A stretch of 64,000 nucleotides of DNA from Gracilariopsis chorda (Eukaryota; Rhodophyta; Florideophyceae; Gracilariales; Gracilariaceae). The stretch spans positions 1 to 64,000 of the forward strand of contig NBIV01000298.1 in assembly GCA_003194525.1 (NCBI GenBank), read 5' to 3'. The notes beneath the pieces are model-generated. The model saw nothing but the letters and a program-made list of their open reading frames with translations, was not told the origin of the DNA and ran no database searches. This document shows positions 1,685 through 58,070 of this stretch, piece by piece; within the stretch, counting starts at the first letter, position 1; every line of letters begins with the position of its first letter. Made by a program: the position numbers and the translations under genes.

Positions 1685-2750
1685 TGTGTCGGTCGCTAAT
1701 GTTGCAGAATGTGCCAGAAATTGCTGGAACACACGTGTAGAATGTTCCAGTAGTGTCTAGCACATTGCACGCTTTGTTGGCCCAGCAAAGACTACAGTAT
1801 TTTAGTGATGCTGGCGCAAATTGTCGCTTTATTATTGGTTAGTGTGCAGCTCCAGAGGTCTCTAGAAGCCAATGGAGTAACCTAGACGCACACATGAGTA
1901 AATAGCAAGTAGAAATGCGTATTTGGCTCGTTTGTAGTGCCTCTAAACACTATAAAAAGAGGTTCTGAGCTTCGGACTTCGGTCTGAACTCACCTCAACA
2001 ATCGACCAACATCTAAGCCCCACCCCCTATCAACCTTCAGCCACTTCAACTATCATCAACAACCAGTGAGGCGTTCGCCACTGGATAGAGGGCTTCTAGT
2101 GAGGCGTATGCCGCTAGTTGTCCAATAGGGTGGGGAAGTACCATCGCTAAGACCGGTTGAAGCGCCTTAGGCGTGGAAGGGAGACGGGTAGTGTGTACCA
2201 AAGGTGTTTCTGTCGTCTGTGAGCCCCACCGGAGCTTTGCTCGGATAACGGTGTCGGTCGAAAGACCTGGTGATTTCCGGACGGAAATACTTGACGGGAA
2301 GCTATCCGCAGGCGACGTGCCGTGCAACCTTTCCTGCAAAGGGCCAGCTTGGGTATAGAGTGAAAGCATATCCCGCTGTTAGTAGCTTTCCTCGGGAAGC
2401 CCTGTAAGGATTGTATGCGCCTGCTTCTGGTTAGTGCAGAGGTAGGTAGGCTGCAGAATCCACTTCACATCCGGAGTGTCTGACCGGAAGCCGAGGGTGT
2501 GACCCTTAGTGATCCTTGACATAATTCTTTGGGTTGCGCGCCGTTTCAACAAAGAAGTTAAGAAGTTTTATTTGGGGATTGAGCCTCTTGCTCTCCTTAG
2601 TGTTGTTTTATTTCATCGAGTGGGTTTAGTTCTTTTGATCCCACTGTTTTCAACTTGTTTTGGGGCTTTTAGCTACGAAGAGCACCCTTTTGGCTTTTAT
2701 TATTACAACTTTTCGGCCCCCTGCGTCACCGTCTCGTGATGGCGCCCACA
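1685..2750 (+). repeat. LTR shared by copies A and B
   Basis: This LTR begins TGTGTCGG and ends GCGCCCACA. It contains a TATA box at 1951-1958, which would leave an RNA leader of roughly 760 nt before the gag-pol ATG at 2739. That ATG lies inside the LTR, 12 bases before its end. The exact left boundary rests on the TG...CA rule and the purine tract, because both copies continue identically into pol. Confidence 0.85.
1951..1958 (+). promoter_or_regulatory. TATA box in left LTR
   Basis: TATAAAAA lies about 266 bp into the LTR and is the obvious core promoter for the element transcript, with U3 on its left. The same motif is at 7631-7638 in the right LTR. Confidence 0.7.
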
Positions 2751-5700
2751 TGGTACTCTCGAGTAGGGAGCTCTTCTGACTCTAACGCTGCATTTACTTC
2801 TTATGACGGTTCTTCTATTGACGTCGTAAAGTTCCTCTTTTACTTTGAGAATGTTGCAATGAGAGGAAAGACTGACGAGGACATGGCACTTGAGTTGCTT
2901 GGTTTCCTTGGGAACAAAGCCTTTGAGTTCTACTATGATTCTTATGCTGTTAATGGTTCACTTTCGGAAGAAGCAAAGGACTACGGCTCCGTTAAGCTAG
3001 CTTTCATCGATCGTTTTGGAAAAGCCGAGGAGCCTGAGGAAGATATACGCCTTGCAATTTCTGCTAAATTGGATTATGCAGACTTGGTTGGTTCCTTGAC
3101 CTATATGGACAACCTCTTCTTAAAGGCAGGATTCAACGCTAAGGCTAAGTTTGGTCTTTTGAAGAAAGCTGTAATGGAATACGCTGATCTAGCCCAGTTC
3201 GTTGTTTTCCGTGGCGCTGATGATTATGATGAGTTGAAGGTTCAAGTGAAAGCCTTCGATGCTGCCCGGAAAGCAATGGGGAACTACGTTTCATTAAGTA
3301 CCCCACCTAACCGTATTGTCCAAAACCACAGGTCTTCTGAAGAAACTATCTCTCATGCTTTGGAGTCTAAGGTCGACAAACTCTCTGAGCAGTTTGCTCA
3401 GCTGTCATTAATGGTTAAGAAGACACAGACGGAGCGTCGAGACTACGAAAAGGTTTGTTCATACTGCAAGAAGCCTGGACATTATGCCTCACAATGTGAC
3501 TCTAATCCGCACCGAGATACGCGATGCCCGCGTTTTGGGAAAATTGGACACTCAGAGATCACTTGTTGGCGAAGAATCCGACCTGAAGAGACCCGCAAAG
3601 TATGGGATGCCAATGAGGAATCTAAAGAGTCAGCATTTAATCTTCGGAAAGGATCCGACCCCGTATCAATTGTCACCGAAAACGCCGGGAATGCTGATGT
3701 AGTCGCCACAACCAAGAGAAGTGCTGACGGTGAAGCGTTGCCCAAACAGCGCCGTTCAGACGGTGGTGCACCCATCCCGCTTTTGCTCAATCCAACAAGA
3801 TACGAAGAGAGAGTTCGGAGACCTAATGTTCATGAACAGAAAGTCAAGAAGCCGAAACAGAGGAAGTCGAAGAAGCAGAGTCTTCAAGACCATGCAAGCA
3901 AATATAACGTTCTCACTGAGCTCGCGAATGCCTCTTCCGGAATAAACTTTGGACAACTTATCAGAGGAGACGCAGATGATGCAAAAAAAGAGATTCGTAA
4001 GCTCATCGGTCGCAAAAGCAATGTTCGACGCCCTTTTGTTGGGCCAGTCGGTAAGCAGCCTAGACGTCTTAAGGCGGTCCCCGTTATGATATATGGGACT
4101 GAGACTGAAGCTTTGCTCGACTCTGGAGCTGTTCCAAACCTTATTTCAACCAAGCTGTGTGACAGGCTAGCACTGGAACCCAAGCATACGACGAAGAACA
4201 TAACTGTTGCCAATGGACAGAGCGCCGTGTGCAGAGGAATGCTATACGATATCCCTATATCCTTCAGGGGCGTCTCCGTTCCATTAGACTTTCTTGTTAT
4301 TGATGGTCCGCCATTCGACATCATTGTGGGTTGTCCAACACTTGAATCGTTACAAGCCTGCCTTGATCTCGGAAATCAGCACGTGAAGATGAATATTGAT
4401 GGAAAAAGAGTAACACTTGGCTTTGACTATGCTCGCGTCGAGATTTCAGACGAAGAGGGTTTCCAGACGGATAGCGACGACTTCACTTCAGATTCTGACG
4501 CCGCTATTGACTCTGATACTGCTTCTGAAAATGACGAACAACTCGTGGTTGCTCTAACAGAAAAGAACCATGGCGAGACTCCCGAAATGATCCCGCAATT
4601 GGACATCACTACCGATGAGCAGCACGAGAAGTTACTCTTTTCAAAACTCTCGCACATTTCAGAGAATGAAAGAGACGACTTGGTTTCTTGTCTGAAGGAC
4701 TCGAATGTAATCGCTTGGTCATTGAAAGACTTACGCCCAGCCGATGTGCCTGTTTCTCACTCTTTCGAGTTGACAGTTGACAAACCAATCTACTTCAGAG
4801 CCAGGAGGATGTCGCCGAAGCACAACGAGTTCGTACGCAAGGAGATTGATCTTCTTCTCGAAACTGGTATCATTACCCCTTCAGCCTCTGCTTGGTCGTT
4901 TCCAATTGTCATTGCCTCGAAGAAAGATGGGAGCGCAAGGTTTTATGTCGATTACAGAGAGCTGAACAGAGTCATGAAAGCTGACCGCTGGCCTTTGCCA
5001 CGCATGGAAGAGATCTTTGACGAACTTGGAGGTTGCTGTGTCTTCACTACGCTCGACCTGTTCTCTGGATACTGGCAAGTCAAGATGTCTGAGGATTGCA
5101 AAGAGATGACGACCTTTGTGTGCAGATACGGAACTTTCATGTTCGAAGTCATGCCATTTGGTCTCATGAATGCGCCTTCCACCTTTCAACGGATGATGGA
5201 TCATGTGCTAAGAGGACTTCCATTCGTTCGGGTTTACATTGATGACGTTGTCATATTCTCAAGAAGCCTCAGAGAACACGTGATTCACTTGAAGGCTGTG
5301 ATTGGTCGGATTGCGAAGCATGGATGGAAGCTCAAACTGTCCAAATGTTTCTTTGCACTATCGGAGGTGTCTCTTCTAGGCCATTTCATCAACGGAGATG
5401 GAGTGCACGTGGACCAGGAGAAGATTGCTAGGATCCAGGATGCCCCAATTCCTGCCACCACTACGGAACTACGATCTTTTCTGGGACTAGCCGGATACTA
5501 TCGAAGGTTCATCAGAAACTTTGCTGAGACCTCCGCCGTGCTTCACAGTGCTACCTCGGGGAATAAGAAGCTGAGTTGGACCGGAGAGATGCTAGAAGCT
5601 TTCCACGGTCTGAAGAAAAAGATGACTGAGCCTCCGGTACTTTCATTTCCAAACTTCGAGCAGCCTTTCATTGTGGAAACGGACGCCTCTAGTGTTTCAC

Positions 5701-7322
5701 TCGGCGCAGTTCTCTCTCAGAAAAAGGAAGATGGGAAGATACATCCTCTGCAGTTTGCCAGTCGTACTATGACCGCTGCGGAAAAGAACTACTCGGCATG
5801 TGAAAGAGAAGCATTGGCAGTTATTTTTGCTCTCAAGAAGTTCAGATTGTATCTACTCTCGTCTGTTCCATTCAAGGTAATCACGGACCATATGGCTTTA
5901 CGATATGCATTTCAGAAGCGCGATATACATGGACGCTTAGCTCGCTGGCTAGACTTTCTGGCCGAGTATGACTTTGAAATAGTGTATCGGGCAGGCAAGG
6001 AGAATGGCGCAGCAGATTATCTGTCAAGGATAGTTCACGGAGACGAGTTCGAGCCGTTAGAAGATGAAGGCGACCTTGCTTGTATGGCTGTTGAGCCTGA
6101 AGACTTCTCCGGTCTTGAACCATACTACGCAAACATTGCGCGCTTCTTTTGTGGTCTGCCTACAGATGAGACTGATGCACGTCTCCGCCAAGCAATCCGA
6201 CGAAATGCGAAGAAATTCCTGGTCTGGGAAGGAAAATTGTTCAGAAAGATGCCAAACGCACTGCGAGTTGTTCCTGTTATTGGTCGGCGACAGATCATTA
6301 TCAAGTCATTTCATGATGAGATTGGACACTGGGATTTGAAGACTACAAGGAAGTTCATCACTGAGAGATACTGGTGGCCCACTATGCATGAAGATATCGG
6401 CAACTACGTCAAGAGTTGTGACGAATGCCAGAGACTCGCACCACTAACAAGGTATTACAGCAACCTTCGGACTCCCATTTCCTCTCTCTTTGACGTCTTC
6501 TCGATTGATTTTGCAGGTCCTCTTCCGACTACCGAATCCGGAAACCGTTTCATTCTGGTTTGTGTTGAGCATTTGACTGGTTGGCCACTTGCCGTAGCGA
6601 CAAAATGGTCTACGTCACAGGAGGTCATAGACTTCGTGAGAAAAGAGATCATTGCCGTGTTTGGTTTCCCTCGTATCGTGGTGTCGGACAATGCTACATG
6701 CTTCACTTCTAAGTCGCTCGTCTCATTTATGGAGGACCATGGTATCAAATGGAAAACGGTCTTGGCGTACGCCCCCATGTCCAATGGCCGAGCTGAAAGG
6801 ATGTTTGGTACTCTGAGAAGAGCAATAGGAAAGAAAGCTCTGGATAATCGTTCAAGTTGGGACGAACACCTGCCTTCGGTTCTGTACGGATACCGGCGCA
6901 GACATCTTGCCAGTGGGATCTCTCCGTTCGAGTTGCTTTACGGCGTGAAACCACGTATGACCTCCGATGAAGGTGGTGTCGTGGCACGAGTTGGGGACTC
7001 CTCCGACCGGTTCCGCTCCGTGGAGCTGCTCGCATCAAGGAATCATAGAGCTAAACGTTCTGCTCTGAAGCCTTTGAAGGAAGTCGATGCAGTCTCCATT
7101 ACGAAGTTTGAAGTCGGTGATCTGGTCCTTGTGGCTCGTGGAAAGGCCCTGAACACTACCGTGAAATGGCCTGCTTTTTCCTCTAAGTACTTTGGTCCAT
7201 GTCGTGTGGTGAAGGCTCACCATCCAAGGTACACGTTGGTTTCTCCACACAACCGGTACACTCGCCATGGAATACACGCCCGTCGTTTGAAGAAGTATAT
7301 TGCGCGCCCGATGGAAGGTTAG
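2739..7322 (+). CDS. Ty3/gypsy Gag-Pol polyprotein (intact)
   Basis: One open frame of 1527 codons encodes structural and enzymatic proteins for retrotransposition. In order: a Gag-like N-terminal region; a CCHC knuckle (CSYCKKPGHYASQC, about residue 240) followed by a degenerate second knuckle whose second Cys is Phe; an aspartic protease with DSGA (about 460); reverse transcriptase with YIDD (about 833); RNase H (TDAS); an integrase HHCC finger; the DDE core (SIDF, SDNA, GRAER); and a GPY/F-like tail. There is no chromodomain. No stop or frameshift separates Gag from Pol. The ATG at 2739 is used; a GTG one codon earlier is ignored. The primer-binding site follows 12 bases later and is translated. 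All key residues are present, so the copy looks competent. Confidence 0.95.
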   Translation: MAPTWYSRVGSSSDSNAAFTSYDGSSIDVVKFLFYFENVAMRGKTDEDMALELLGFLGNKAFEFYYDSYAVNGSLSEEAKDYGSVKLAFIDRFGKAEEPEEDIRLAISAKLDYADLVGSLTYMDNLFLKAGFNAKAKFGLLKKAVMEYADLAQFVVFRGADDYDELKVQVKAFDAARKAMGNYVSLSTPPNRIVQNHRSSEETISHALESKVDKLSEQFAQLSLMVKKTQTERRDYEKVCSYCKKPGHYASQCDSNPHRDTRCPRFGKIGHSEITCWRRIRPEETRKVWDANEESKESAFNLRKGSDPVSIVTENAGNADVVATTKRSADGEALPKQRRSDGGAPIPLLLNPTRYEERVRRPNVHEQKVKKPKQRKSKKQSLQDHASKYNVLTELANASSGINFGQLIRGDADDAKKEIRKLIGRKSNVRRPFVGPVGKQPRRLKAVPVMIYGTETEALLDSGAVPNLISTKLCDRLALEPKHTTKNITVANGQSAVCRGMLYDIPISFRGVSVPLDFLVIDGPPFDIIVGCPTLESLQACLDLGNQHVKMNIDGKRVTLGFDYARVEISDEEGFQTDSDDFTSDSDAAIDSDTASENDEQLVVALTEKNHGETPEMIPQLDITTDEQHEKLLFSKLSHISENERDDLVSCLKDSNVIAWSLKDLRPADVPVSHSFELTVDKPIYFRARRMSPKHNEFVRKEIDLLLETGIITPSASAWSFPIVIASKKDGSARFYVDYRELNRVMKADRWPLPRMEEIFDELGGCCVFTTLDLFSGYWQVKMSEDCKEMTTFVCRYGTFMFEVMPFGLMNAPSTFQRMMDHVLRGLPFVRVYIDDVVIFSRSLREHVIHLKAVIGRIAKHGWKLKLSKCFFALSEVSLLGHFINGDGVHVDQEKIARIQDAPIPATTTELRSFLGLAGYYRRFIRNFAETSAVLHSATSGNKKLSWTGEMLEAFHGLKKKMTEPPVLSFPNFEQPFIVETDASSVSLGAVLSQKKEDGKIHPLQFASRTMTAAEKNYSACEREALAVIFALKKFRLYLLSSVPFKVITDHMALRYAFQKRDIHGRLARWLDFLAEYDFEIVYRAGKENGAADYLSRIVHGDEFEPLEDEGDLACMAVEPEDFSGLEPYYANIARFFCGLPTDETDARLRQAIRRNAKKFLVWEGKLFRKMPNALRVVPVIGRRQIIIKSFHDEIGHWDLKTTRKFITERYWWPTMHEDIGNYVKSCDECQRLAPLTRYYSNLRTPISSLFDVFSIDFAGPLPTTESGNRFILVCVEHLTGWPLAVATKWSTSQEVIDFVRKEIIAVFGFPRIVVSDNATCFTSKSLVSFMEDHGIKWKTVLAYAPMSNGRAERMFGTLRRAIGKKALDNRSSWDEHLPSVLYGYRRRHLASGISPFELLYGVKPRMTSDEGGVVARVGDSSDRFRSVELLASRNHRAKRSALKPLKEVDAVSITKFEVGDLVLVARGKALNTTVKWPAFSSKYFGPCRVVKAHHPRYTLVSPHNRYTRHGIHARRLKKYIARPMEG
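2751..2764 (+). promoter_or_regulatory. Putative tRNA primer-binding site
   Basis: TGGTACTCTCGAGT starts at the first base after the LTR, where LTR elements place the site complementary to a tRNA 3' end (TGG pairs with CCA). It is read in frame as Trp-Tyr-Ser-Arg. The priming tRNA is not identified. Confidence 0.6.
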
Positions 7323-23831: not shown

Positions 23832-25688
23832 TTAAGTTGATTGCATATGCAACGAGCGCCAACCCGCAAGTTTGTACAGTCCCGCAATCGTCGCTTTGAA
23901 CATTCGTACGTAATCGGCCGCCGAGCGTTCATGTAACCAGTTCATTCGACGCAGAATAACACGTCCCCATCTGGAATTATCGTATAGAGCTCGAAAGGGA
24001 GCCAACATTGCCGCAGCAGTACGTTCTGGTAGGATCTCCGTGTAAGCCGAAACGATAATGCCATCCACCGACAACGACCCGGAGGTAGTTATGGGAGAGT
24101 ACATCCCTCGCATCACTTGGTCTTCCAGTACTGATACAGTTGCAAGATCACCTCTATCTGTGAATAGCTTGTCTCCGACCATCACCATTCGCGCTGGTAT
24201 TTTCCCTCTTCCAGCGACTGGTAGGATATGAGCATGGCTGATATACAGTACATAAGTGCGCTCATTCTCTAGTTCATTCGTTGTCGCAGTCACCCTTCTG
24301 TAAACCCCCCATTGAGAAGATGTCTTGTGGCCGAAAAAGTACACATCAGAAGTATCTACTCCGAACTTGTAGAACAGGGCATCCCCGAAGTGGATCTCCT
24401 CCATGGTTTTATACACACAGGATCCAAGAGGATTGACTGTTTTGACAACTGATCTTGCCGGAAAACAGGAGTCTTTTGCATTGACATTTGTGCTAGCGTT
24501 TCCCTTTGGACACACCAATGCTTCGTGGGAAATGTCGCACATGCACCCAGTCTTCAAGCACGAAAGCGTGCAGCATTCTTTGTTGATTATTTCCTGACTG
24601 AAGATTGTCCCGCTTAAGTCGATATCCTTGTTCGAAATGGATACGTTGACGAAAGTGATTCCCTCCATAAACTTAGCCCCCGCGAAGGTGATCTTTGTGG
24701 TCGCAACGTCCGACAGTGTATCGCCCTCCACAGTCGCATCTCTCAGTGAGAACGAGCTGCACACGTCGTCCGCATACGAAGTTATGTTCTTCACGACAAG
24801 GTTCACGATGTCAGATTTAGATAGATCAAGGTGGTTGCGAACGCGAATGTCGAGTAAATCCAGACCGGTGATTTCTGTTTGATCGCAGTAAAAGCCATCC
24901 GTAAAACTGACATTTTTGATCAGAGATCTGTCAAGCGTGATTCGCTTCTTGGCACGTCCGTCTTTGTTCGTAACCTGCTCGTGGCAACTGAGGGCCCCGA
25001 TCCTCGAAGATATGACTTCTAATTCATCTACAGATGCACTCTGAATGCGGATGGAACCGGAACCTATCGTACTGTGAATGAGGATGCGATGAAGCGACAT
25101 TTCGGACATAAGCATATTCCCTCCATTCTTTTCCGTACCGTTGGCAGTCGGAGAGCCCAAAATGGAATGCGAAATGGTCATTCGACTTACATCCCCCTTA
25201 GCGAACCGTATCTCATTCCTGAAGATGCAATTCCTGAAAGTGACGCTGTCGAGCGAAAACTTTTCGAAGGACAAGTCAAAGGAACTCGAGAAAACGCAGT
25301 CCTCAAACAATACGTTTTGCATAGTTGCATGTGAGAAGCTGGCGATTTGCTTTTGAGTGCCCTGCTTACCTCCAAAAGTACAAGCTTTGAAAGTAACATT
25401 GTTCCAAGTTGTATCATCGAGAGCCTGGTTCCGGGAGGTGGGAAAATGGAAAGTACAACCCGTGAACTGCGTATTCCTTATTACGGATTTGGAAAAGTCC
25501 CACTCGCGTGTAAGGTTCTCGAAGTGCTCTTCCTGTACACAAACGTTGAAGAACCTTCCCTGAGCTGCTTGGCCTCCAGTATCTGCTGGTCCGAGACAAT
25601 GCTTGTAGCTGATTTCCGCTTCAGCTCGATCCACTAGGCAGAAGACAACAACAACGATAAGCAGAACAGCAGTGAAAGTGAAAGTCAT
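23832..25688 (-). CDS. Secreted pentapeptide-like protein with C-terminal Hedgehog-type Hint (hog) domain
   Basis: The protein has 618 residues. Residues 1-24 are a signal peptide (TAVLLIVVVVFCLV). Residues about 60-390 hold repeated strands of the type FTGCTF, FKACTF, FEDCVF, FRNCIF, consistent with a right-handed beta helix of pentapeptide-repeat type. From about residue 410 a Hint module starts at DSCFPARS (catalytic Cys followed by Phe-Pro, as in Hedgehog), with the block-B histidine in YISHAHILPV and the late block YSPITTSGSLSVDG. A Hedgehog-like tail segment (LAPFRALY) follows. Hog domains cleave themselves from the secreted N-part and can attach a sterol. The Cys of the Hedgehog SCY motif is Ala here (VSAYT). 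The Met at 25688 is chosen because the TATA box at 25848-25855 puts transcription start near the earlier Met (25820). Confidence 0.85.
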   Translation of the reverse strand: MTFTFTAVLLIVVVVFCLVDRAEAEISYKHCLGPADTGGQAAQGRFFNVCVQEEHFENLTREWDFSKSVIRNTQFTGCTFHFPTSRNQALDDTTWNNVTFKACTFGGKQGTQKQIASFSHATMQNVLFEDCVFSSSFDLSFEKFSLDSVTFRNCIFRNEIRFAKGDVSRMTISHSILGSPTANGTEKNGGNMLMSEMSLHRILIHSTIGSGSIRIQSASVDELEVISSRIGALSCHEQVTNKDGRAKKRITLDRSLIKNVSFTDGFYCDQTEITGLDLLDIRVRNHLDLSKSDIVNLVVKNITSYADDVCSSFSLRDATVEGDTLSDVATTKITFAGAKFMEGITFVNVSISNKDIDLSGTIFSQEIINKECCTLSCLKTGCMCDISHEALVCPKGNASTNVNAKDSCFPARSVVKTVNPLGSCVYKTMEEIHFGDALFYKFGVDTSDVYFFGHKTSSQWGVYRRVTATTNELENERTYVLYISHAHILPVAGRGKIPARMVMVGDKLFTDRGDLATVSVLEDQVMRGMYSPITTSGSLSVDGIIVSAYTEILPERTAAAMLAPFRALYDNSRWGRVILRRMNWLHERSAADYVRMFKATIAGLYKLAGWRSLHMQST

Positions 25689-25847
25689 ATCTCGGATTAG
25701 ATGATCGAAGTGTATGACAGACGGTTGTTGGTGTGGATGGGTACGTCGGTGAAGTAATCCAAGTTCACGAAGTGTGGACTCGTTCAGTTGCGCGACACTT
25801 CTGGTGACAGAGGTTGGCATTCTTCACATGAAACGTGCGACGCTGCA

Positions 25848-25855
25848 CTTTTATA
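25848..25855 (-). promoter_or_regulatory. TATA box of the hog-domain gene
   Basis: TATAAAAG on the minus strand. It predicts transcription starting near 25820 and a leader of about 130 nt to the signal-peptide Met at 25688. Confidence 0.65.
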
Positions 25856-28648: not shown

Positions 28649-30562
28649 TTAGCCTCTGTGGAAAAAGACATTTCCACGCAGTTCGCGTCTAGTAATGTCA
28701 CTGTTTTTCAGGATGATGTCTTTCAAACCGCTTCTCCTTGAGAATAATCTCCTCACTGTGGGTATCCTCTTTAGCCATCCAGGGAATCGGTCATTCATGT
28801 AATAAAACCGATCTCCATCACGTAGGTTTCTGAACTGTCTCTCCCACATTGCCGACATTGTACTTCCGAGAGAACCGCCATGCACATGATCTTCCGCTAT
28901 CATACCAACCCACGCTTCAACTTTGTTCACATCCCCTCTGTACACAGTAGAAAGCGATGAGGCAACGTTTGCGTTCTTCGTTATATCGCTGAATGATCTG
29001 TGGGCAGGCAGTCCCAAACGTCTTCTGATGGCGTTCAGCGGCGGTAGAGCGTGATCTCTCCCGCGTTGCAAGTTCAGTGAGACCAAGTCAAACGCCAGCC
29101 CTTCCTCCGGAATGCCGGTGAACAAGAAATTTCGCAGAGAGTCGTGCACCATAACGTCCACCTCCTGCGCGTTGGTCGTAGCAGCACCTCGAAGAAATTC
29201 TTCAACGTTGGTGAACTGCTTTGCAGTGCGGAAGAACATCTCCATGAAAGAAAGTGGTTTCAATGGAGTATTTCCTTTTCCTGCTCGGCTGATCTTGTTT
29301 CCAACCATGGTATGTCCAACACGGAAAGCCGCAGTACTGAATACGTCAATGATTGCCACATTCTTGTAGTATTTGAATCCAGTATACGATGGGAGCTTCT
29401 TACCCACCATAGCTGGGTAATACTCCTCGAACACAATCTTCTGGAACTGTGCGGTGTTGATGAGCTTCGCCAACTCATACAGATACTTGTCACCCAAGAA
29501 AAAGAAAATCCTCTTCAACTCATCGCAAATTCTGTTGTGTTCCCGGACAAATATGGTGTGCAGGGAGGTCAAGACCGGGTGCTCATTGGCTCGGTGATCA
29601 CCGGCCAGGAAGAAGAAGGCATCAGCCGTAGGAGCGTTAGAAAGACCTGCAGTATTCAGCGGCAACAGATTACCGGCAGAGACCTTGAGCTTGCCGTTCT
29701 TAAATGTTCTCATAGCATTATTGCGTTCAACGGTGGGTCCGTACACAGTGACAAGGTCCAAAGCAGAAGAAAGAGAGTTGATCGGACGTTCAGCCCCGTA
29801 GTAAATGGAAGCCTGGCGCGGCTTGTAAGAAGGAGAGGACTCCTGGGCGGACACTTGACGGAATACCTGCTGCAGAGACGGTGCAGCTTGAGCCGCGGAA
29901 AGTGCAACTTTCGGCGCTTGACCCAAAGATTGTGCTGTGACACCGGGAACCTTGCTTGCCAGAAGGGGATCTTGTTGCACCACCGAAGGGATGTCCTTTG
30001 CTACTTCATCGGAAGACGAACCAAATATTCCGAGAATATCAACCTTTGCGCGCTGACTTCGAGAGAACTGGAGAACTCCGCCGGAAAAGTTTGCGAAGAT
30101 GGGATCGTCGTTGGGAATTGGAATAGGCATTTTTTCACTACTAGCGGGTGTTGCCACAAAAGTGTGATCGACAAACTGTCCGAAGAATACGACGAGTTCG
30201 TTGAGATTGCGTCGGTTGAAGACATCTTTGGATTGCTTACAGACGGTGTTAGAGATATAACGTGCGGATGGTAGCCCTTTTCCGGTCGGAGTGACAGACG
30301 TCTGGGTGAAGAACAGGGAAGACTGTGCACGACCAGTGGAACCCCATAGCTTGAAGACCGGGTTCGTGCAGACCCCGTCTAGTTGGCGAAAGAGAGGTGA
30401 ACAGCGAACGTTCACGCGTTGTTCTTCTACGAAACCGCCTGGTTGTACTGCTTGTAACTCAAGAGCCTGTGGTCGCTGACGGGAATTTTGTCGAGGAGCT
30501 TGCGCAAACACCAGCGGAAGCAGGGCGCAGAAGAACAGGGGTGCAAATGTGAAGGAGTACAT
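28649..30562 (-). CDS. Secreted animal-type haem peroxidase 1, 637 aa
   Basis: Members of the peroxidase-cyclooxygenase superfamily oxidise halides or phenols with peroxide. Residues 1-20 are a signal peptide (FAPLFFCALLPLVFAQA), so it acts outside the cell. The distal site reads FFGQFVDHTF: Gln, Asp and the distal His are kept, but the residue after His is Thr where animal enzymes have the calcium-ligand Asp. Also present are the REHNR block (VREHNRICDEL), the proximal His (FRVGHTMVGN) and the late family blocks NLQRGRDHALP and MIAEDHVHGG. Compared with peroxidase 2 it has an extra Ala/Gln/Ser-rich insert of roughly 75 residues (about 185-260) before ERPINSLSS. The start at 30562 is chosen because the longer frame adds 65 residues that precede the signal peptide. 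Confidence 0.93.
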   Translation of the reverse strand: MYSFTFAPLFFCALLPLVFAQAPRQNSRQRPQALELQAVQPGGFVEEQRVNVRCSPLFRQLDGVCTNPVFKLWGSTGRAQSSLFFTQTSVTPTGKGLPSARYISNTVCKQSKDVFNRRNLNELVVFFGQFVDHTFVATPASSEKMPIPIPNDDPIFANFSGGVLQFSRSQRAKVDILGIFGSSSDEVAKDIPSVVQQDPLLASKVPGVTAQSLGQAPKVALSAAQAAPSLQQVFRQVSAQESSPSYKPRQASIYYGAERPINSLSSALDLVTVYGPTVERNNAMRTFKNGKLKVSAGNLLPLNTAGLSNAPTADAFFFLAGDHRANEHPVLTSLHTIFVREHNRICDELKRIFFFLGDKYLYELAKLINTAQFQKIVFEEYYPAMVGKKLPSYTGFKYYKNVAIIDVFSTAAFRVGHTMVGNKISRAGKGNTPLKPLSFMEMFFRTAKQFTNVEEFLRGAATTNAQEVDVMVHDSLRNFLFTGIPEEGLAFDLVSLNLQRGRDHALPPLNAIRRRLGLPAHRSFSDITKNANVASSLSTVYRGDVNKVEAWVGMIAEDHVHGGSLGSTMSAMWERQFRNLRDGDRFYYMNDRFPGWLKRIPTVRRLFSRRSGLKDIILKNSDITRRELRGNVFFHRG

Positions 30563-31623
30563 TTGTGGTTGCTGCTGTGAAAGTAGGAAGACGGGGTGCA
30601 GCTCGCGATGCAGATCGAAGTGGACATGGTGGTTGGGGATTCGGCGGCTTATGAATGGTTCAGGGATGGATGGAATGCTGACTCGCACAGATTGAATGAC
30701 ACTCGCATTGACTTGAGAAACAATGCAGCAGTCGAGGGTTTGTCGGGGTGAATGCAAATGGTTGCTTCTCGAGCTCTTCTTTGAGCGCGTGGCGAACGGC
30801 AGTGCATAGATACACTCCTGAGCTTACCGCACTGTTTGGTAGCATGACGGATGCCAAACACAGGTTTACGGCACCTCTTTAATGGTCCATGTAAGCAACT
30901 GACGGCTGACATTGTACGTTGCGTGCAAGAAAGCTAATCAGAATTCAGCAAGGCACGCTGACATCGGCTCCTCAAGGATCGGGGGGCCTCCACTTGTCCA
31001 GCAATTCCGCAGCAACGCCTCGGCATGGTACAAACGGAAGGGTTATCATACAACGGAAGTTACCATTGAACAACAGATAACCGACAGATTGTAGTCGTCT
31101 CCCCTGCCAGACGCCGACTTCCACGGGCTGGAGATGCGTTGCTAACTATGCTGCAAGGGATATCGAACTTAAGCATCATATCAGTGTTTGAGAAAGAGTT
31201 AGATAGACAGATACCTGTAACTCACTTTGAAATCTTACAATCCTTGTTGTGGGAGGCCCTTTCCAAGGAATACAAGTGCACAACTCAAGTCGGCAGATTC
31301 TACGGAACTCCGTTAAAATTAGTGGCAACAAAATCTCACACAAACATGCACCTCCCCTTCCGACATGAAGACCTAGTTAGGACATGCGTTCGTGTACCTA
31401 CAAGACGACTAACCCTCGTGCTCCAGAACGTGGCGATTCTGCGAAAGTCATTGCCATGCCATGCATGTAAGAACACCACGTCAGATGACCCCGACAGCAC
31501 TCATCCTCAACTAGAACCCCCACCGCGGGCCTTGCACTGTCTTGGCTTCTGTTTGTTACCTTCAACCATCACCATCGTCTCCCGGTAATATGGGTCTCGT
31601 AGCTCCCAACCTTCTTAGAAACA

Positions 31624-36609: not shown

Positions 36610-38304
36610 TCACAGTCCTCCACTAAAGAAAGGGTTTCGCGGTACTTCCCATGACGCAATACCAGTATTCTGGATGAGAATCTCTCGCATAGTAGAGCGT
36701 CTCGAGTACACAAAGCGCCGTAACGACGGAACCCGCCACCACATATGAAGAGGGAATGCTTGCCATCTTCGATAGTAGAAGCGATCACCATCACGAAGTC
36801 GAGCGAATTCCGTGTGCCAGATGCGGAGCATAGTTGGTCCCATGGACGCTCTATGCACATGATCCTCGGCTACCAATCCGGGCCATAGTTCCACTTTGTT
36901 AACAGTTCCATACGCTGTTGCCAGTTTGGATTGTACAGCTGGATCACGTGAGATATCAGCAAACGTACGGGCTGGGCGACGACCCATGAGTTGTCTGACC
37001 TTGTTGTAAGTAGGCAGTGCATGGTCTCTTCCGCGCTGAATGTTAAGCGCTACCAAATCAACTCCAGACTCCTGCGGAATGCCGGTGAACAAGAAATTTC
37101 TCAACGCATCGTGCACAGAGAGGTCAACTTCTTGTGCCCGATGATACAGTGAACCTCTCAAAAAAGGTTCAATACCTTCGTTCATAACGGTACTAGGTCG
37201 GAAAAACATTGAAGTAAACTGAAAGGAAGGCATATTACGAAGGCCTTTTCCAAGTCGATGGATGGAGTTCCCTACCATAGTATGGCCCACTCGATAAGCG
37301 GCTGTAGAGAAGATCAAACTGACAGTAGGGTTGACATTAGGAAGATATCCATAGTAACGACCAACGTAACGTCCCGTCATAGCGGGGATGAACTCTTCAT
37401 AAACGACTTTCTGGAATTGTGCAATATTGATGTGACGAGCGTTCTGAAAGAGTCGTTCATCGTCCCAGCGTGGATATTGGGCTTTAAGTTCTCGACATAT
37501 GCGATTGTGTTCACGTACAAACAGGATGTGTAAGGCCGTGAGCATAGGATGTTCATTTGCACGATGATCGCCTGCTAGAAAGAAGTGGGGTTGATTTGAA
37601 GGTGCATTTCGAAGGCGTTGCGTATTGAGTTGAAGCATGCCTTTAGGAGACGTCCTGATTTCCCCCTTAGAAAAGGAACGTAGCACGTTGGTGCGAAGGT
37701 CGTCAGCGCCATATACGGATGACAAGTCAATGAGAGAAGAAAGGGAGTTGATAGGTCGTTCAAGGTGTGGAGCATCCGGCAATGCAGCTCGTACAGACCT
37801 GTGAAATGGAAGAGTGCCCTTGGAAAAGTTGGAGAAGATAGGATCGGCATGTGGTATGGGGATGGGCATAGATTCGGATTGATTGACGGGGGTTGCAACG
37901 ATTGTGTGGTCCAAAAACTGTCCAAAGAAGACGGTGAACTCGCTCACAAAGCGGTTGTTAAGAAGGTCTGAGGATTGAGAAGAGAGAATATTGGACAGGA
38001 GACGGGCTGATGGCAAGCGCGATCCAAGCGCGGTTGTGGACGTATGAGAGGGGTGATAGGTGAATTGAGCGGTTCCCGCAGCGGCCCATAAGGGGTTTCG
38101 CAGGTTGTTACACGAACCGTCATAAGTTCGAAAGTGAGTTTGGTTGCATTGTGCCAGTTGTTGAACGGGAAGATCGGCATCGTCCTCGGAAAGCGGGGTA
38201 AGAGCTGTGTTATCCCTGCCATTTGGACGTGGAGCCTGGGCGTACACGCCTGAAACGAGGAAGAAGAACACACAAAAGTGGAAGAAGAGGGGTGGAGAGG
38301 TCAT
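36610..38304 (-). CDS. Secreted animal-type haem peroxidase 2, 564 aa
   Basis: A paralogue of the peroxidase at 28649-30562. Residues 1-22 are a signal peptide (FFHFCVFFFLVSGVYAQA), cut before the same QAPRPN start. The distal site is FFGQFLDHTI (again Thr after the distal His), then ERPINSLSSLIDLSSVYG, VREHNRICREL, the proximal His block YRVGHTMVGN, NIQRGRDHALP and LVAEDHVHRA. It lacks the Ala/Gln-rich insert of paralogue 1 and is close to a minimal catalytic domain. The Met at 38304 is chosen; the longer frame adds 87 residues without a signal. It is divergent from the pseudouridine synthase with about 340 bp between ATGs, so the two may share a promoter region. Likely roles are extracellular oxidative or halogenating chemistry, by family only. 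Confidence 0.93.
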   Translation of the reverse strand: MTSPPLFFHFCVFFFLVSGVYAQAPRPNGRDNTALTPLSEDDADLPVQQLAQCNQTHFRTYDGSCNNLRNPLWAAAGTAQFTYHPSHTSTTALGSRLPSARLLSNILSSQSSDLLNNRFVSEFTVFFGQFLDHTIVATPVNQSESMPIPIPHADPIFSNFSKGTLPFHRSVRAALPDAPHLERPINSLSSLIDLSSVYGADDLRTNVLRSFSKGEIRTSPKGMLQLNTQRLRNAPSNQPHFFLAGDHRANEHPMLTALHILFVREHNRICRELKAQYPRWDDERLFQNARHINIAQFQKVVYEEFIPAMTGRYVGRYYGYLPNVNPTVSLIFSTAAYRVGHTMVGNSIHRLGKGLRNMPSFQFTSMFFRPSTVMNEGIEPFLRGSLYHRAQEVDLSVHDALRNFLFTGIPQESGVDLVALNIQRGRDHALPTYNKVRQLMGRRPARTFADISRDPAVQSKLATAYGTVNKVELWPGLVAEDHVHRASMGPTMLRIWHTEFARLRDGDRFYYRRWQAFPLHMWWRVPSLRRFVYSRRSTMREILIQNTGIASWEVPRNPFFSGGL

Positions 38305-38641
38305 GACGACGATGTAGCGTGACGAGGGATTGGGACGGGTGTGCGATGTGAAGCGGTGATGCGGCTTTGAAGAAGTGGCGGGACGGGCGGGCGCAGCGAG
38401 CGCGGTGCGCAGCGAGCGCGGGTGTACATATCGCAACACCTCACGGCGACGTGCTGCGTGGCACGCGCAGCCGCTCGAGAGTGCAGCACCACGTGTGGTG
38501 TACGCCACGTTGCGCGAGAATCGCGCCACGAGGTGTAAGCCGGCGCCCCAAGTGTGCCGCTGCACGCTGGGTGGGACGCCGTTGCGTCTGGCCCCTCCTG
38601 GCGCCGCCGCGCTTTCGCTTCATAGCGGCGCGCGAAACGAA
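38305..38641. promoter_or_regulatory. Divergent promoter region
   Basis: GC-rich interval between divergent genes. It contains a 16-bp tandem pair (GCGCAGCGAGCGCGG, from 38391 and 38407) and a CACGTG G-box at 38490-38495. No TATA box is clear. A longer plus frame opens at 38375 but has no protein-like start. Confidence 0.45.
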
Positions 38642-42518: not shown

Positions 42519-44636
42519 ATGTACAACCGAGTTATTTGGGTACTACTCGCAGCGTTCTGCGTGACTGGAGTCTCGATACCGTCCCAGGAACATTTGGGCA
42601 TTGGAATGAGACGTCGTAGAAGGGTTGCACCAGAAGCCCAACACTTCGGAAAGCATTTCACCAACCGGAACGTTCATCGCAATGGAGGTGTACCGCACGG
42701 TATATCGAAGCATCATGACGTTAGAGATGACACCGTCGCGGGTTTATATGAAGATGGGCCTAGTGCATATATGAACACTCGTTATCTACAAGACAAGATT
42801 GAAGCTGTTACGCACACCGACGGTCTGTTCGTGGACTACGAAGAGGAAGAAATTCAAACTCCCTCATCTTTTGAAATGTATGAAAAGGCGGGATTAAATG
42901 AGAAGTTTCCTGACGAGAGTACCGTAGATCACACCAATTTCAACATTGTTGGATTGTCTGCCCACGATACCGAATCTGCCCTTGAGAAAGAAGATTTGAA
43001 TGATGACTTCCTTGATACAGACTCGGATGACACTGATCACAATGACTTTGAGATTATCGGGCAGTCCACCGAGACGGAACAAATGAATCTGCCGAACGAT
43101 GGCAGCGATGATGACGATTATGATTCTGAATATGACGCTTTGTCAGATGACGATGAGGACGACGGAGATATTCTTGTTCAAGGGCAAGCCATACTTCTAG
43201 ACGACGGTGGGTCAGCATCCAACTCAGATACAGAGAAGTACAAAACGTGGACGGAAGATGAGCTATATGAGCCTCTGGAGGACGGTTCATTTGACAGCAA
43301 AGACCTTCCAAACATGGCTACCGATACTTTTCGCGCTGCAGAGACCCCCGATGATATCGACATGAGTGAAGGCTTTGAGACGGATACGCGGGACTTTTCT
43401 GAGGTTTCTAATTCAGAAGGTTTCGCGCAAATTCCTGATGAAATGGGTGACGGGCTGGACATGGAAGGAATGGCTTCCCATTATGTACAAGACGGATATC
43501 AAACAGAAGATTACTACAGTTTGGCTTCGGAAAGGGTTTCAAGTGTTGATGATGATGATACCTCGTATGAATCAGCTCGTACTATTCAAGAAGACGATAC
43601 TCATGTGAATGGGCAAAGCATGATTCGTGATAGCCATTCGTCGAGCGATGAATCCTCGGAAGCTCCCGATTTGCCAATACATACAGAAGAAGGCGATCAT
43701 TTGCACAGTGAGAACCGGAAGTATGTTGACTCCGAAGAAGAAGATGATGACGATGATGATGAGGGAGACCTAGAACAGGCCCACGATGAAAGAGAAGCAT
43801 ATCTTCTTGATGAAGATGAGTATTTGGTGGGTGATATGGAATCCGCAAGATTCGAAGACAATGAATATGATGCTTACTTTGAGGACGCGGACAGTCTCAT
43901 CGAAGACTCATCACTTGATTCTGATCGCGGTCCGAGTATTAGCACTACACGCTCGACAATGCACATGTTCGATTCAACAGATCATGATCGTTCTGAGGAT
44001 GATAACGATGCATCCGAATGGGCTGACGAATTGGATGAAAGCGACCATGACCATGACTGGCCGACGTACAATACTCGCACAGCCTCATCTGAAAGTCATT
44101 ATTCGTCGGACGGAGAATACGAATTCATTGATGACAAATTGCCTGATGATTCCCGCAATGTACGTGTGGGTGGCTTTGCAATCGTTAGTGACAGAACGCC
44201 TGCTACTCATACTTCGTCTTCTTCCTACCAGAATTCCGAGGATATGTACGCACTGGAGCAGGGGTTCTCTGAGAATGACCAATACCACGCAAGGCTGGAC
44301 GATGACACTTACATACATTCCAGCGCACGCGACATATCGGGCTTTGTACAAGACCGTGAGACACACAATTCAGATGACGAATACAGTTTTGATGAGGAAG
44401 AAGGATGGGGTGAGCACCAGGATGTACATCTTTCTCGTGAACGATTCTCGCAAGATGGCTTGCACCACTACACAGGTGGTGACTTAACAATCCATGGGCA
44501 CAGCAGAATGTCAGATGACATGAGCAATAATGTTGAGGACCAATACTCTGAGATCTCTGGGAATTACGACCGTGAAGAAGAGTTGCATCAGGTTCAGACA
44601 CACACACACGAGAGATCCTCAGAGATGCTTCAGTAG
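42519..44636 (+). CDS. Secreted, highly acidic Asp/Glu/Ser-rich protein, 705 aa
   Basis: Residues 1-20 are a signal peptide (VIWVLLAAFCVTGVS). A basic patch follows (RRRRR at about 31-35), a possible processing site. The remaining 660 residues are dominated by Asp, Glu and Ser with runs such as EEEDDDDDDEGD and almost no Cys. A short hydrophobic motif recurs in acidic surroundings: NFNIVGLS, NDFEIIGQS, EGFAQIPD, EYEFIDD, GGFAIVSD. No known domain is recognised. Composition suggests a disordered calcium- or polycation-binding protein of the cell wall, a mineral-interacting protein, or a Ca store; all are inference. Many low-complexity proteins look similar, so homology by composition alone would mislead. 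Codon usage is normal and the frame is clean. Confidence 0.75.
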   Translation: MYNRVIWVLLAAFCVTGVSIPSQEHLGIGMRRRRRVAPEAQHFGKHFTNRNVHRNGGVPHGISKHHDVRDDTVAGLYEDGPSAYMNTRYLQDKIEAVTHTDGLFVDYEEEEIQTPSSFEMYEKAGLNEKFPDESTVDHTNFNIVGLSAHDTESALEKEDLNDDFLDTDSDDTDHNDFEIIGQSTETEQMNLPNDGSDDDDYDSEYDALSDDDEDDGDILVQGQAILLDDGGSASNSDTEKYKTWTEDELYEPLEDGSFDSKDLPNMATDTFRAAETPDDIDMSEGFETDTRDFSEVSNSEGFAQIPDEMGDGLDMEGMASHYVQDGYQTEDYYSLASERVSSVDDDDTSYESARTIQEDDTHVNGQSMIRDSHSSSDESSEAPDLPIHTEEGDHLHSENRKYVDSEEEDDDDDDEGDLEQAHDEREAYLLDEDEYLVGDMESARFEDNEYDAYFEDADSLIEDSSLDSDRGPSISTTRSTMHMFDSTDHDRSEDDNDASEWADELDESDHDHDWPTYNTRTASSESHYSSDGEYEFIDDKLPDDSRNVRVGGFAIVSDRTPATHTSSSSYQNSEDMYALEQGFSENDQYHARLDDDTYIHSSARDISGFVQDRETHNSDDEYSFDEEEGWGEHQDVHLSRERFSQDGLHHYTGGDLTIHGHSRMSDDMSNNVEDQYSEISGNYDREEELHQVQTHTHERSSEMLQ

Positions 44637-45499: not shown

Positions 45500-48415
45500 T
45501 TAGCTGCCACTGCTTTCGACAATTTCGTCAACATCCTCATTTTCCACACCGTCCACAATGACATCTATAGAATCGACTTCATCTCGTTCTGATAGTTCGA
45601 ATACCACGACATCCGCAACGGTATCACGTTGGTCTAATCTCTGAAGTCGTACACCATATGACATTCGTCCTTGCACAGGAACCTTGGACACTCTAGTTCG
45701 TACCATATTCCCTTCACTGGTTATTAGCATTACCGAGTCATCCCTACGGCAGGAATGAACTGCAACGAGCCTGTCTCCTTCTTTGCTTCCCTTTCTCTTC
45801 TTCCTCAGCTTTGTTCCGATGACCCCAAGTCCCCCTCGATTCCTTGGTCGTAGATCGGACACTCGAATTCTTTTCCCATATCCTTGTCTTGTGACTGCGA
45901 GAATATATCTTTCGTTGTCGTCCTCCACAACAACTGTGTCGTCTTCCAGGTCTTCTTCATCTTCAACTACATCGGCCGACAAGTCCTCAATTTCATCAAG
46001 CTCGTTCCATGGTATAATATCCATGCCTGCTATTTCATCATCTGGTCGTAGACTGATACCGCGTACCCCGCGGCTTAGTCGCCCGCTGGCGCGTAGGATT
46101 TTCTTTTCCGTAGCGAACCTAATTATTCTGCCCTTCGTCGTCGCTATGACAACATTGTCTCTCCGCCTACACCTCCTCACCCATAACAATTCATCGTCTT
46201 CACCCACAGACATGACACGCTTTCCTCTTGCGTTAACGGACAAAAATTCATCCAGGGCCGTCTTCTTGATAAAGCCTTTTCGTGAGAGCAGCACAAGATA
46301 TTCATCATCCTTTGTAACTGGCAGCACAGCAGCCATTCTCTCACCAGTCGGAACCCCAGGTAAAAGCTGAAAGATCGGCACTCCTCGGGATGTCAAAGAA
46401 GTGGCTGGGACATGATGAGCCTCTAGGCTGTACACGATACCTCTGCCCGATATCGCGATTAGACAGTCATGCGTCATACATGAGAAGAGATGTGATATCT
46501 CATCCCCCATGCGCAGTCTTCCTATACCGCGTTTCCCTCTCGTACCTCTGTTTTGACTGTCAAAAGCACATGCTGGCATCCTTTTGATATAACCCTGCTC
46601 CGTGACAGTGATTACACTCCGATCATTTGACGTGAGTGACCTCTCATCAATTTCTGTTGCATCCAAACTGCTACCGCTTAGAATAGTAGATCTCCTCTTT
46701 TTGCCGTACTTCTCTGCGCTCGTCTGCAAATCATCCGCAATTATCGCATCGACTCGTGAGGGACTCTCAAGGATCTCTCGCATTTCCTTCACGGAAGATT
46801 CTAGCGAACGCTCTTCTTCTTGAAGTTTCCGATACTCCAAAGATGTTAAACGACGCAATTGCATTTCCAGCACTGAGTTTGCTTGCTGCTCACTTAGATC
46901 ATATTCTTCAATCAAGCGGAATCGAGCTGTAGAAGTATCAGCTGATGATCTTATTGTGTTGATCACCTCATCCATGTTCTTCTGCACAACTAGCAGTCCG
47001 TTTACAATGTGGAGCCGTCCCTCAGCTTTCTCAAGATCGAAAGCGATCTTTCGTCTCTCAGTTTCTCTGCGGAAATCTAGAAACTTCACAAGACAATCTC
47101 GCAAGCTAAGTTGAATTGGAAATCGGCCATTATCCATCGCCATCATATTGCCTGCAAAGGAGCTTTGAAGCTGCGTCTTCTTGTACAAATTGTTCATCAC
47201 TACTGACATCACGGCATCTCGTTTCAATTCAACAACAATTCGCGTGCCAGTCCGATCTGATTCGTCGCGCAAGTCAGCAATTCCTTCTAGTTTCTTATCG
47301 TTTACCAGCTCTGCGATTTTTGCAACTAATCTCGCCTTGTTGACTTGATACGGCAACTCAGTGATGACAATGGCTTCTCTCTGCTTTCGCTTTCCTTGGC
47401 CCTCCAGTGTTTCGGTGTGTGCCAGCGCTCGAACTGTAATTCGTCCGCGTCCAGTTCGATACATTTCTTTTGCACCGTCTGTGCCGAGAATGAGCCCACC
47501 AGTGGGAAAGTCTGGTGCAGGTACGAATTCAAATAGACGCTCATCTGACACATCAGGATCTTCAATCAATGCTGTGAGAGCAGAAACGAGCTCCCCAAGG
47601 TTATGAGGCGGGATGTTTGTGGCCATTCCGACGGCAATGCCAGAACCTCCGTTTACCAGTAGGTTGGGGACTTTAACAGGTAGAACAAGCGGCTCATGCT
47701 CGGAGCTGTCAAAATTAGGCATGAACGAAACAGTGTTACAGTCAATGTCGGACAGAAAAGTATCTGTTGCTAGTCGAGACAGCTTGCATTCGGTGTATCG
47801 CATAGCAGCGGGCGGATCACCATCTGTAGAGCCAAAATTTCCGTGTCCGTTGATGAGAGGAATGGACATTGAAAACGGTTGAGCCATTCTTACAAGTGCA
47901 TCATAAACGGCGGTATCGCCATGAGGGTGGTACTTTCCAAGGACCTCGCCCACAACTCGCGCACATTTTCGGAACTGACCGCTAGGGGCAAGCCCCAAAA
48001 CATGCATAGCATAAAGTATGCGGCGGTGTACCGGTTTGAGTCCATCGCGAACGTCTGGCATGGCGCGTCCCAGGATGACGGACATGGCATAACCCATATA
48101 AGAACGCTCCATTTCTAATCGCAAGTCTGTTGGAACAACGTTCAGCCCGGCTTTTCCAGGTCCGCTGGAACCATTCTGCGTGTCTGACATTCTGGGAATT
48201 CTTCGGTTGGAAGTGGCATAGTTCCGGAAGCGGCTCTGCGCCGCTCCGCACCTGCCCAGAAAACCTGAGCGAAAGTTGAGTCGGTAGGGCGTCCATGCTG
48301 ATATGAATACGGCAGCAGCTGGACGCAACATTGTGGAATGAAATGCTGGTGGTTCGTCGAACATTGCTTCATCTGACGCTGATCGGCATGTTGTGGAGAT
48401 GGTGGCCACTAGCAA
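45500..48415 (-). CDS. gyrA: DNA gyrase subunit A, organelle-targeted
   Basis: Subunit A of type II topoisomerase, which breaks and rejoins DNA and with GyrB introduces negative supercoils. In plants and algae the nuclear-encoded enzyme serves plastids, sometimes also mitochondria. The N-terminus (about 90 residues) is Arg/Ala/Ser-rich presequence. Then come [17 protein letters not shown] and [18 protein letters not shown], the catalytic Tyr in AAMRYTE (about residue 206), the tower and coiled-coil region, and a six-bladed C-terminal domain with a GyrA box (QNRGTRG). A strongly acidic insert ([16 protein letters not shown]) interrupts the C-terminal domain, and the tail is acidic. At 971 residues it is longer than bacterial GyrA (about 800-880) because of these additions. 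Met codons at 48415 and 48331 are both possible; the second gives a cleaner presequence (MLRPAAAVF). Confidence 0.95.
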
Positions 48416-57044: not shown

Positions 57045-58070
57045 TCACGTGCCGGGAAAGGCGGAAAGTTTCCTCTCCGGGTTTTCCTGGCTGTACAGCT
57101 GTTGAAGGTAATCTTTAGCTACATCGTCCCATACAGCAGTAAAAGCGTCCTTAAGATCAGTTACATTACTGTACTGCTTTCCACGTTCATAAACACGCCT
57201 AGCCATAAGTCCCCACACATTTTCAATAATTTTCAAATCCGGGGACTTTGCAGGCCATGGTAGAACGCGTATATTCTTTGTACGTAGCCAGTTCCTTGTG
57301 TAGATAGAGGTATGTATGGACGCATTATCCTGTTGAAGGTACCAAGTCCGTTCTTCACCGAAGACACCATCTACCCATGGTAGTAGATTAGACTCTAGTC
57401 CCTCACAGTAATTTGTAAAATTCTGATTTCCAGTTATAAAAACCAAAGGACAGACTCCATAGAAAGATATTGCTCCCCATATCATAACCGAATCTCATCC
57501 ATTCTGACGCTTAGAAAATCGTTGAGGTTCCTTCCGAAGATCATGCCAATAGTATGCGAATCCATTCGGTCCATCTAGATTAAACTTCTTCTCATCGCTG
57601 AAAATTACCTTGCCCCAGAAATATTCCCCACGAGATATATTACGACGTGCGTATTCTATGCGTGCAGTTTTATGCTTCTGAGTCATTAATGGACCGGTTT
57701 TAATTTTACGATATTGAAGATGTTCACATTGAGATAGTAATTGCTGAACTTTTCGCACCCCGATGGGTAAATTAAGCGACGATTTTAGTTGAGAAGCAGA
57801 TTGAATGCCTTTGGATGCTTCTCTTAGTAGTGCTCTTTTCTGTTGCATTGACATCTTGGCCTTTTTCCTGACGTTTCCATGTGGTTTAGATGTTGTTTTG
57901 CGTCTCAGTACTGATGGTACTGCTCCTGAAGAGCGGTTGATAGTGTCAGCAATTTGTCGAAGAGACATTTCTTCATGTCTCAGGGCATGAATCTGGCCGA
58001 GTTCGAACTCAGAAAGATGAGGGCCTCTAGCCATGTTTGGTTTGGCAAAAGACTGGGCAGAAGTCGTCAA
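57045..58070 (-). pseudogene. Tc1/mariner transposase, DD34E, one in-frame stop
   Basis: Two frames in the same phase, 58070-57495 and 57494-57045, form one transposase of 341 codons interrupted by a single TGA at 57495-57497. The N-terminus has paired helix-turn-helix motifs (LSEFELGQIHALRHEEMSLR, then RKKAKMSMQQKRALLREASK). The catalytic triad is present: FSDEKKF (first Asp), QQDNASIHTS (second Asp) and SPDLKIIENVWG (Glu) with exactly 34 residues between the second and third. The TGA stands where family members have Gly in a GG.SVM.WG block, so a GGA to TGA change is likely. The C-terminal end (NPERKLSAFPGT) departs from the usual ending and may be frameshifted. Nearly intact, hence young. 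Confidence 0.88.

Follow-up and report, generated by a model that had tools for sequence, protein, structure and literature searches.

An apparent secreted Hog-class precursor with a pentapeptide-like ectodomain in the red alga Gracilariopsis chorda, and histidine at the general-base position of 38 Hog domains

The gene at 23832..25688 of the window, the whole 64,000-nucleotide stretch of DNA analysed here, appears to encode a secreted, Hog-class precursor protein of a red alga. Its Hog domain is one of 38 in the genome in which histidine replaces the general-base aspartate of fly Hedgehog (Asp303, or D46). The preliminary description had placed a Hog domain behind a secreted, repeat-containing partner in a non-animal genome, and this holds by sequence: the reading frame is intact, Pfam identifies the domain and a leave-one-out profile recovers it. 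Red-algal Hog domains are already known from ESTs; here we have a natural set of His46 domains together with varied ectodomains. By homology, the window protein (P0001) most likely cleaves itself at Ser407-Cys408, its ectodomain becoming joined to a sterol or other alcohol. The features are as follows.

23832..25688, minus strand: whole coding sequence of P0001, an intact open reading frame of 618 codons plus stop
25849..25855, minus strand: TATAAAA, a possible core promoter by consensus match only
25617..25688, minus strand: signal-peptide-like start, residues 1-24, by hydrophobicity heuristic only
24591..25496, minus strand: pentapeptide-like or beta-helix-like region, residues ~65-366, by Pfam, repeats and likeness to the paralogue L038
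24510..24575, minus strand: Cys-rich stalk, residues 372-393, each of its six Cys aligning with a Cys of L038
23835..24467, minus strand: Hog domain (Hint plus C-terminal tail), residues 408-618, by Pfam, alignments and profile
24465..24467, minus strand: Cys408, the nucleophile Cys1, invariant in 38 of 38
24327..24329, minus strand: His454, at the position of fly Asp303, in the column of D46 of 1at0 and H46 of 6tyy
24228..24239, minus strand: block B Ser484-x-x-His487 (TxxH motif), with Ser for Thr
24045..24047, minus strand: Ala548, where the SCY motif would have its cysteine, by the alignment of 38
23835..23990, minus strand: tail after Arg566, residues 567-618 (52 aa), in the place of the sterol recognition region

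Where does translation begin? An alternative in-frame ATG lies at 25820, 43 codons upstream of the start at 25688. We prefer the latter because the signal-peptide-like stretch begins there; 25820 is the less likely start, since the TATAAAA at 25855 would put the start of transcription just a few bases before it.

A search with Hint/hog profiles was the check proposed in the preliminary description, and it identifies a Hog domain by two routes. Pfam places Hint PF01079 at residues 404-574 with 45.5 bits against a cut-off of 29.7 (E 8.8e-12). A profile that excludes the window copy, and was built on the genome's remaining 37 Hog domains, scores the protein at 108.8 bits (E 1.2e-31 in a set of 10,000), while the best of 200 shuffles reaches 4.3. 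The motifs quoted earlier from the sequence are all present, namely DSCFPARS (with Cys408), SHAHILPV (Ser484 to His487), YSPITTSGSLSVDG and LAPFR (with Arg566), and the alignment bears out that the cysteine of the family SCY motif is replaced by alanine, at residue 548. The tail of 52 aa compares with ~53 aa after the matching Arg in the fly chain 6td6_B, as counted from the alignment. Comparing P0001 with Pfam up to E 1 returned no match to the Hedge signalling domain PF01085; searched against the genome, this domain gave zero matches here and zero in control genomes alike.

Could the Hint-like region be a chance likeness, or a Hint domain of another kind such as an intein, Vint or Hint_2? 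Weak matches to Vint, Hint_2, PT-HINT and Hom_end_hint do occur in the paralogues, all below cut-offs. Against this stand the gap between shuffles and protein, the rank of PF01079 as best Hint-class Pfam model in 38 of 38 Hog proteins, and the comparison of the family profile with solved structures. There, fly Hedgehog 6td6 comes top at E 2.3e-26 (6tyy scores 88.7 bits and 1at0 81.7 bits), Sonic hedgehog follows at E 9.6e-21 and intein-named chains reach 0.0003 or weaker. We consider such a misassignment extremely improbable.

None of the 38 Hog domains has diverged further than the window copy. Its end branch measures 3.17 against a median of 0.87, its Hint score is the lowest of the set, and it carries insertions absent from the other rows of the alignment. 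Is it then in decay, a secreted beta-helix-like protein whose tail is inert and no longer cleaves? The longest end branch in the tree, the insertions and Ala548 would fit decay; on the other side, the 618-codon frame is open, the six columns invariant across the 38 are all kept, and 15 of the 16 Cys of L038 are shared. We hold decay to be improbable.

What lies in front of the Hog domain? The signal peptide and the Cys-containing, pentapeptide-like repeat domain described earlier are supported by the hydrophobicity heuristic, by a marginal match to Pentapeptide_3 PF13576 at residues 65-107 (29.8 bits, cut-off 27), and by a V-x-F-x-x-C-x-F repeat at residues 98, 126 and 149 that tolerates variation at its first or third residue. 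Pentapeptide and beta-helix models of lower score, below their cut-offs, extend the region to about residue 179, and beyond this its assignment, to about residue 366, follows from likeness to L038. The assignment of the domain as a whole also leans on L038, because a whole-genome search with PF13576 (E <=0.001) reported L038 and two other places, the window being absent from that result. Two structure models, both made without an alignment, reach a mean pLDDT of 36 (Hog region alone) and 41 (whole protein), too low for us to count them towards a Hint fold; in the latter, a low-confidence model, residues 2-24 form a helix. Foldseek returned 426 matches to this whole-protein model up to E 10, none of them at 0.001 and the best at E 0.053. 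The pentapeptide proteins AlbG and QnrB1 stand at ranks 3, 6, 9 and 28 among the 50 matches listed, which is at most a hint.

The window gene has its closest relative in L038 (E 1.1e-66), with 100 identical residues among 398 aligned before Cys1 and 60 among 187 after it. The two proteins have 15 Cys in common, of 18 in the window protein and 16 in L038, and they group in the tree of 38 Hog domains with support of 95/81. The Pentapeptide_3 match of L038 scores 48.4 bits. The preliminary description called the partner of the Hog domain unusual, which stands; it is not unique, as L038 has the same layout of pentapeptide region, Cys stalk and Hog domain.

How large is the family to which these two belong? 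The assembly searched comprises 91.3 Mb in 1081 contigs. It has seven matches to the phycobilisome linker family; one of these proteins, compared with solved structures, scores highest in total with a five-repeat linker chain (8imn, 565.5 bits), and among LR3 chains it is nearer to 5y6p from Griffithsia (467.6 bits) than to 6kgx from Porphyridium (291 bits), as befits a red alga and most likely a florideophyte. The assembly holds at least 41 Hint matches. All 43 of the first-look Hint candidates were scored and the match counts are lower bounds; 38 matches, the window copy included, exceed the cut-off and span nearly the whole domain. Three weaker matches (L046, L047 and L048) were excluded from the 38, one of them reaching the cut-off together with its neighbours. 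A signal-like start was found in 31 of the 38 proteins by a hydropathy heuristic whose cut, 2.1 on mean hydropathy, was picked after the list had been inspected, and several of the seven others resemble exons without a first part. An acidic run, often poly-Asp, abuts Cys1 in 15 of the 38 (at least five Asp/Glu in the preceding twelve residues); the window protein has a single such residue there. Pro-x-Gly occurs within the last 16 residues of 14, by a loose pattern and often with hydrophobic residues after it; the window protein is not one of these. It may mark an algal adduct-recognition tail.

Partner domains named by Pfam over cut-off occur in eight of the 38: pentapeptide in the window protein and L038, fasciclin in L016, L026 and L032, trypsin in L025, temptin in L015 and the copper monooxygenase C-terminal domain in L017. 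The genome has five fasciclin matches, three of which fall within Hog frames. L011 and L017 are siblings, with 90% identity across the 173 residues preceding the Hog domain. BLAST at E 1e-3 chains an unnamed ectodomain class of 11 members (L012, L014, L019, L020, L023, L024, L027, L028, L037, L039 and L040), some of its links being weak, and at the same threshold pairs L018 with L044 and L041 with L042; 14 of the 38 ectodomains fall into no class by Pfam or BLAST at E 1e-3. In the Hog tree the two copper rows group at 100/100 and the three fasciclin rows at 93/95, while the L018/L044 pair is without support (32/0). The bootstrap had not converged, 27 of the 35 inner branches lie under 80, and the placement of the window copy depends on a very long branch; on the question whether ectodomain class follows Hog lineage, this tree speaks neither for nor against repeated shuffling. 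A Patched-family search of the genome gave three matches in two places, two at G000:C139:125220-125686 (E 1.7e-18 and 4.7e-5) and one at G000:C24:81340-81729 (E 1.3e-9).

Mean column identity across the 38 domains is 32%, and only six columns are invariant: Cys1, Phe2, His46, the His of block B, one Gly and one Val. Block B begins with Thr in 21 and Ser in 17. The SCY position holds Thr in 26, Ser in 5, Cys in 5 and Ala in 2, namely the window copy and L039. The LxPxR tail entry has Pro in 35 and Arg in 37, with Lys in one. The residue preceding Cys1 is Ala in 12, Val in 10, Ser in 6, Thr in 3, Lys in 2, and Glu, Leu, Ile, Gly or Met in one each; in Hedgehog it is Gly, according to the available part of PMC9163320. 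The window domain resembles fly Hog (1at0, 6td6) in Cys1-Phe, the (T/S)xxH block B, the late G-x-x-x-P-x-T-x-x-G block, the S-x-Y motif, the LAPxR tail entry and the form of a secreted precursor. It differs in having His where the fly has Asp303, Ala at the SCY Cys and Ser rather than Gly before Cys1, and in carrying a pentapeptide-like partner in place of the Hedge ligand domain.

What does histidine do at position 46? The column of the algal His holds His in 6tyy and Asp in 1at0, and 6tyy is an engineered fly Hedgehog, D303H (Figure 6 legend of PMC9163320). As far as the available text of that paper goes, D303H retains its fold, its pKa and its activity, and takes coprostanol and epicoprostanol far more readily; D303A keeps cleavage by DTT but not full cholesteroylation, and H329A is inactive in both. 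The substitution is laboratory-made in one protein (Zhao 2019, as cited in the accessible parts of PMC9163320 and PMC8529194), in contrast to the His of 38 natural red-algal paralogues that aligns with it, and the portion of PMC8529194 at hand discusses 'D46H' for the engineered protein alone. In one algal domain, swapping His46 for Asp shifts the Pfam score by only 0.1 bit, which suggests that His is common in the sequences from which the Pfam model was built. When Thr at the SCY position is exchanged for Cys in one paralogue, the score climbs by 5.4 bits, from 113.4 to 118.8. We take His in place of Asp303 as a variant of the Hog domain rather than grounds for excluding these proteins from the class, because the fly swap is active and the Pfam model, in the one domain, scores both residues alike. 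The idea that His46 is peculiar to this genome was dropped on the same single-domain comparison.

How would such a precursor be processed? By homology, Cys408 would attack the carbonyl of Ser407 in the ER, assisted by Ser484 and His487, to give a thioester through an N-S acyl shift. The thioester would then be displaced by an alcohol that His454, standing in for Asp303, would activate and that is most likely a membrane sterol. The beta-helix-like ectodomain with its Cys stalk (residues ~25-407) would leave with a C-terminal ester that would keep it at the plasma membrane or within the wall matrix. The Hog domain would be discarded. A module ending at least 38 proteins would act as a general tag for C-terminal processing or anchoring. 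Taken whole, from Hog precursor through thioester and sterol-ester release to general tag, we judge this explanation probable. It is favoured by the Hog homology, the kept invariant residues, the LxPxR entry and the secretion-like starts. It is also favoured by the activity of D303H and by the tolerance of unrelated N-terminal partners, the partner in Hedgehog being replaceable by unrelated polypeptides in the part of the published work at hand. For the window copy the explanation is weakened by its divergence and by Ala548, where the Pfam model favours Cys.

Must the acceptor be a sterol? The pocket is only putative, since the tails after the LxPxR Arg run from 11 to 58 aa and binding is not readable from sequence. 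The accessible part of a sterol paper cites desmosterol as 73.6% of sterol and cholesterol as 13% in 23 red-algal samples, which weakens the case for cholesterol in particular. The Hog domain could instead pass its ectodomain to water or a small non-sterol alcohol, as bacterial intein-like domains do, and so release it in soluble form. The short, diverse tails, the lack of the SCY Cys in 33 of the 38 and the broader acceptor choice that His46 confers on fly Hint would suit such an acceptor. Against it, His46 is present in every one of the 38, the fly residue at position 46 activates the sterol while D303A spares thiol cleavage, and the LxPxR entry is mostly kept. Release of this kind is possible, though we think it unlikely.

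Sterol-ester release, the preferred reading, invites a broader and more tentative proposal: that florideophytes use Hog as a general C-terminal tag which removes itself, much as the GPI anchor serves elsewhere, to esterify wall and surface proteins with sterol, the His base suiting the mixture of algal sterols rather than cholesterol alone. Its cargo would be proteases, fasciclins, temptin, copper enzymes and beta-helices and its sterols cholesterol, desmosterol and 22-dehydrocholesterol. We hold this wider role possible but unlikely. Animal Hedgehogs are the main known case of a protein that carries covalently bound sterol. Having at least 38 Hog precursors, and His46 in 38 of 38, the genome supplies natural test material for the role of Hog outside the Hedgehog ligand, and the same gene set lets the effect of the base on sterol choice be probed. 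Are many wall proteins of a seaweed sterol-anchored? The question becomes testable.

The Cyanidiales are unicellular, deep-branching red algae. Their Kelch-Hint proteins, as given in 2023 in the accessible part of PMC9812998, are likewise multicopy Hint fusions (three K+H in Cyanidiococcus, 11 in Cyanidioschyzon) and differ in their kelch partner and subtelomeric genes; the Hog genes of Cyanidioschyzon carry H3K27me3 according to the available part of PMC5405695. Red-algal Hog ESTs are recorded from Chondrus, Griffithsia, Porphyra and Gracilaria changii (six fragments) in the portion of Burglin 2008 (PMC2362128) at hand. In these the Cys of motif J is replaced by Ser, Thr or Asp, and the motif varies in other protists too. 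The upstream regions of those ESTs matched nothing elsewhere. In the same portion we found no genome-scale count, no partner of the pentapeptide, protease or fasciclin kind, and no remark about the general base. The nematode warthog and groundhog genes similarly combine several Hog domains with novel N-termini in one genome; the family here is nearly four times the ten of C. elegans given in the available part of PMC1636047. Searching the literature, mostly outside subscription papers, returned no account of Hog-fasciclin, Hog-pentapeptide or Hog-temptin fusions in red algae.

Comparisons of a kind that reaches close relatives only were also made, with contig collections free of algae, so that they carry no weight for the spread of the family among eukaryotes. 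Against viral contigs, P0001 gave one stretch and none confirmed. The Hog region of L009 gave nine with one confirmed, in L058 (E 7e-6), a frame that looks phage-structural by eye; we rejected it as a chance likeness, also judged by eye. Against genome contigs, the Hog region of L014 gave 54 stretches, none of them confirmed.

The remainder of the window holds other frames. Two related, secreted-looking frames on the minus strand (28649-30757 and 36610-38565) presumably resemble haem peroxidases of the animal type, and we take 45500-48415, minus strand, to be a gyrase A-like frame, extended at its N-terminus and possibly targeted to the plastid. Mobile elements are presumably represented by a Gypsy-like polyprotein frame whose C-terminal part recurs in a second frame (302-1642 and 2736-7322), and by frames resembling a hAT-type transposase (53879-56266), a Tc1/mariner-type transposase fragment (57495-58070) and a copia-type gag (59975-61171). 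A very acidic frame of 705 aa at 42519-44636, rich in Asp, Glu and Ser, has a signal-like start by eye.
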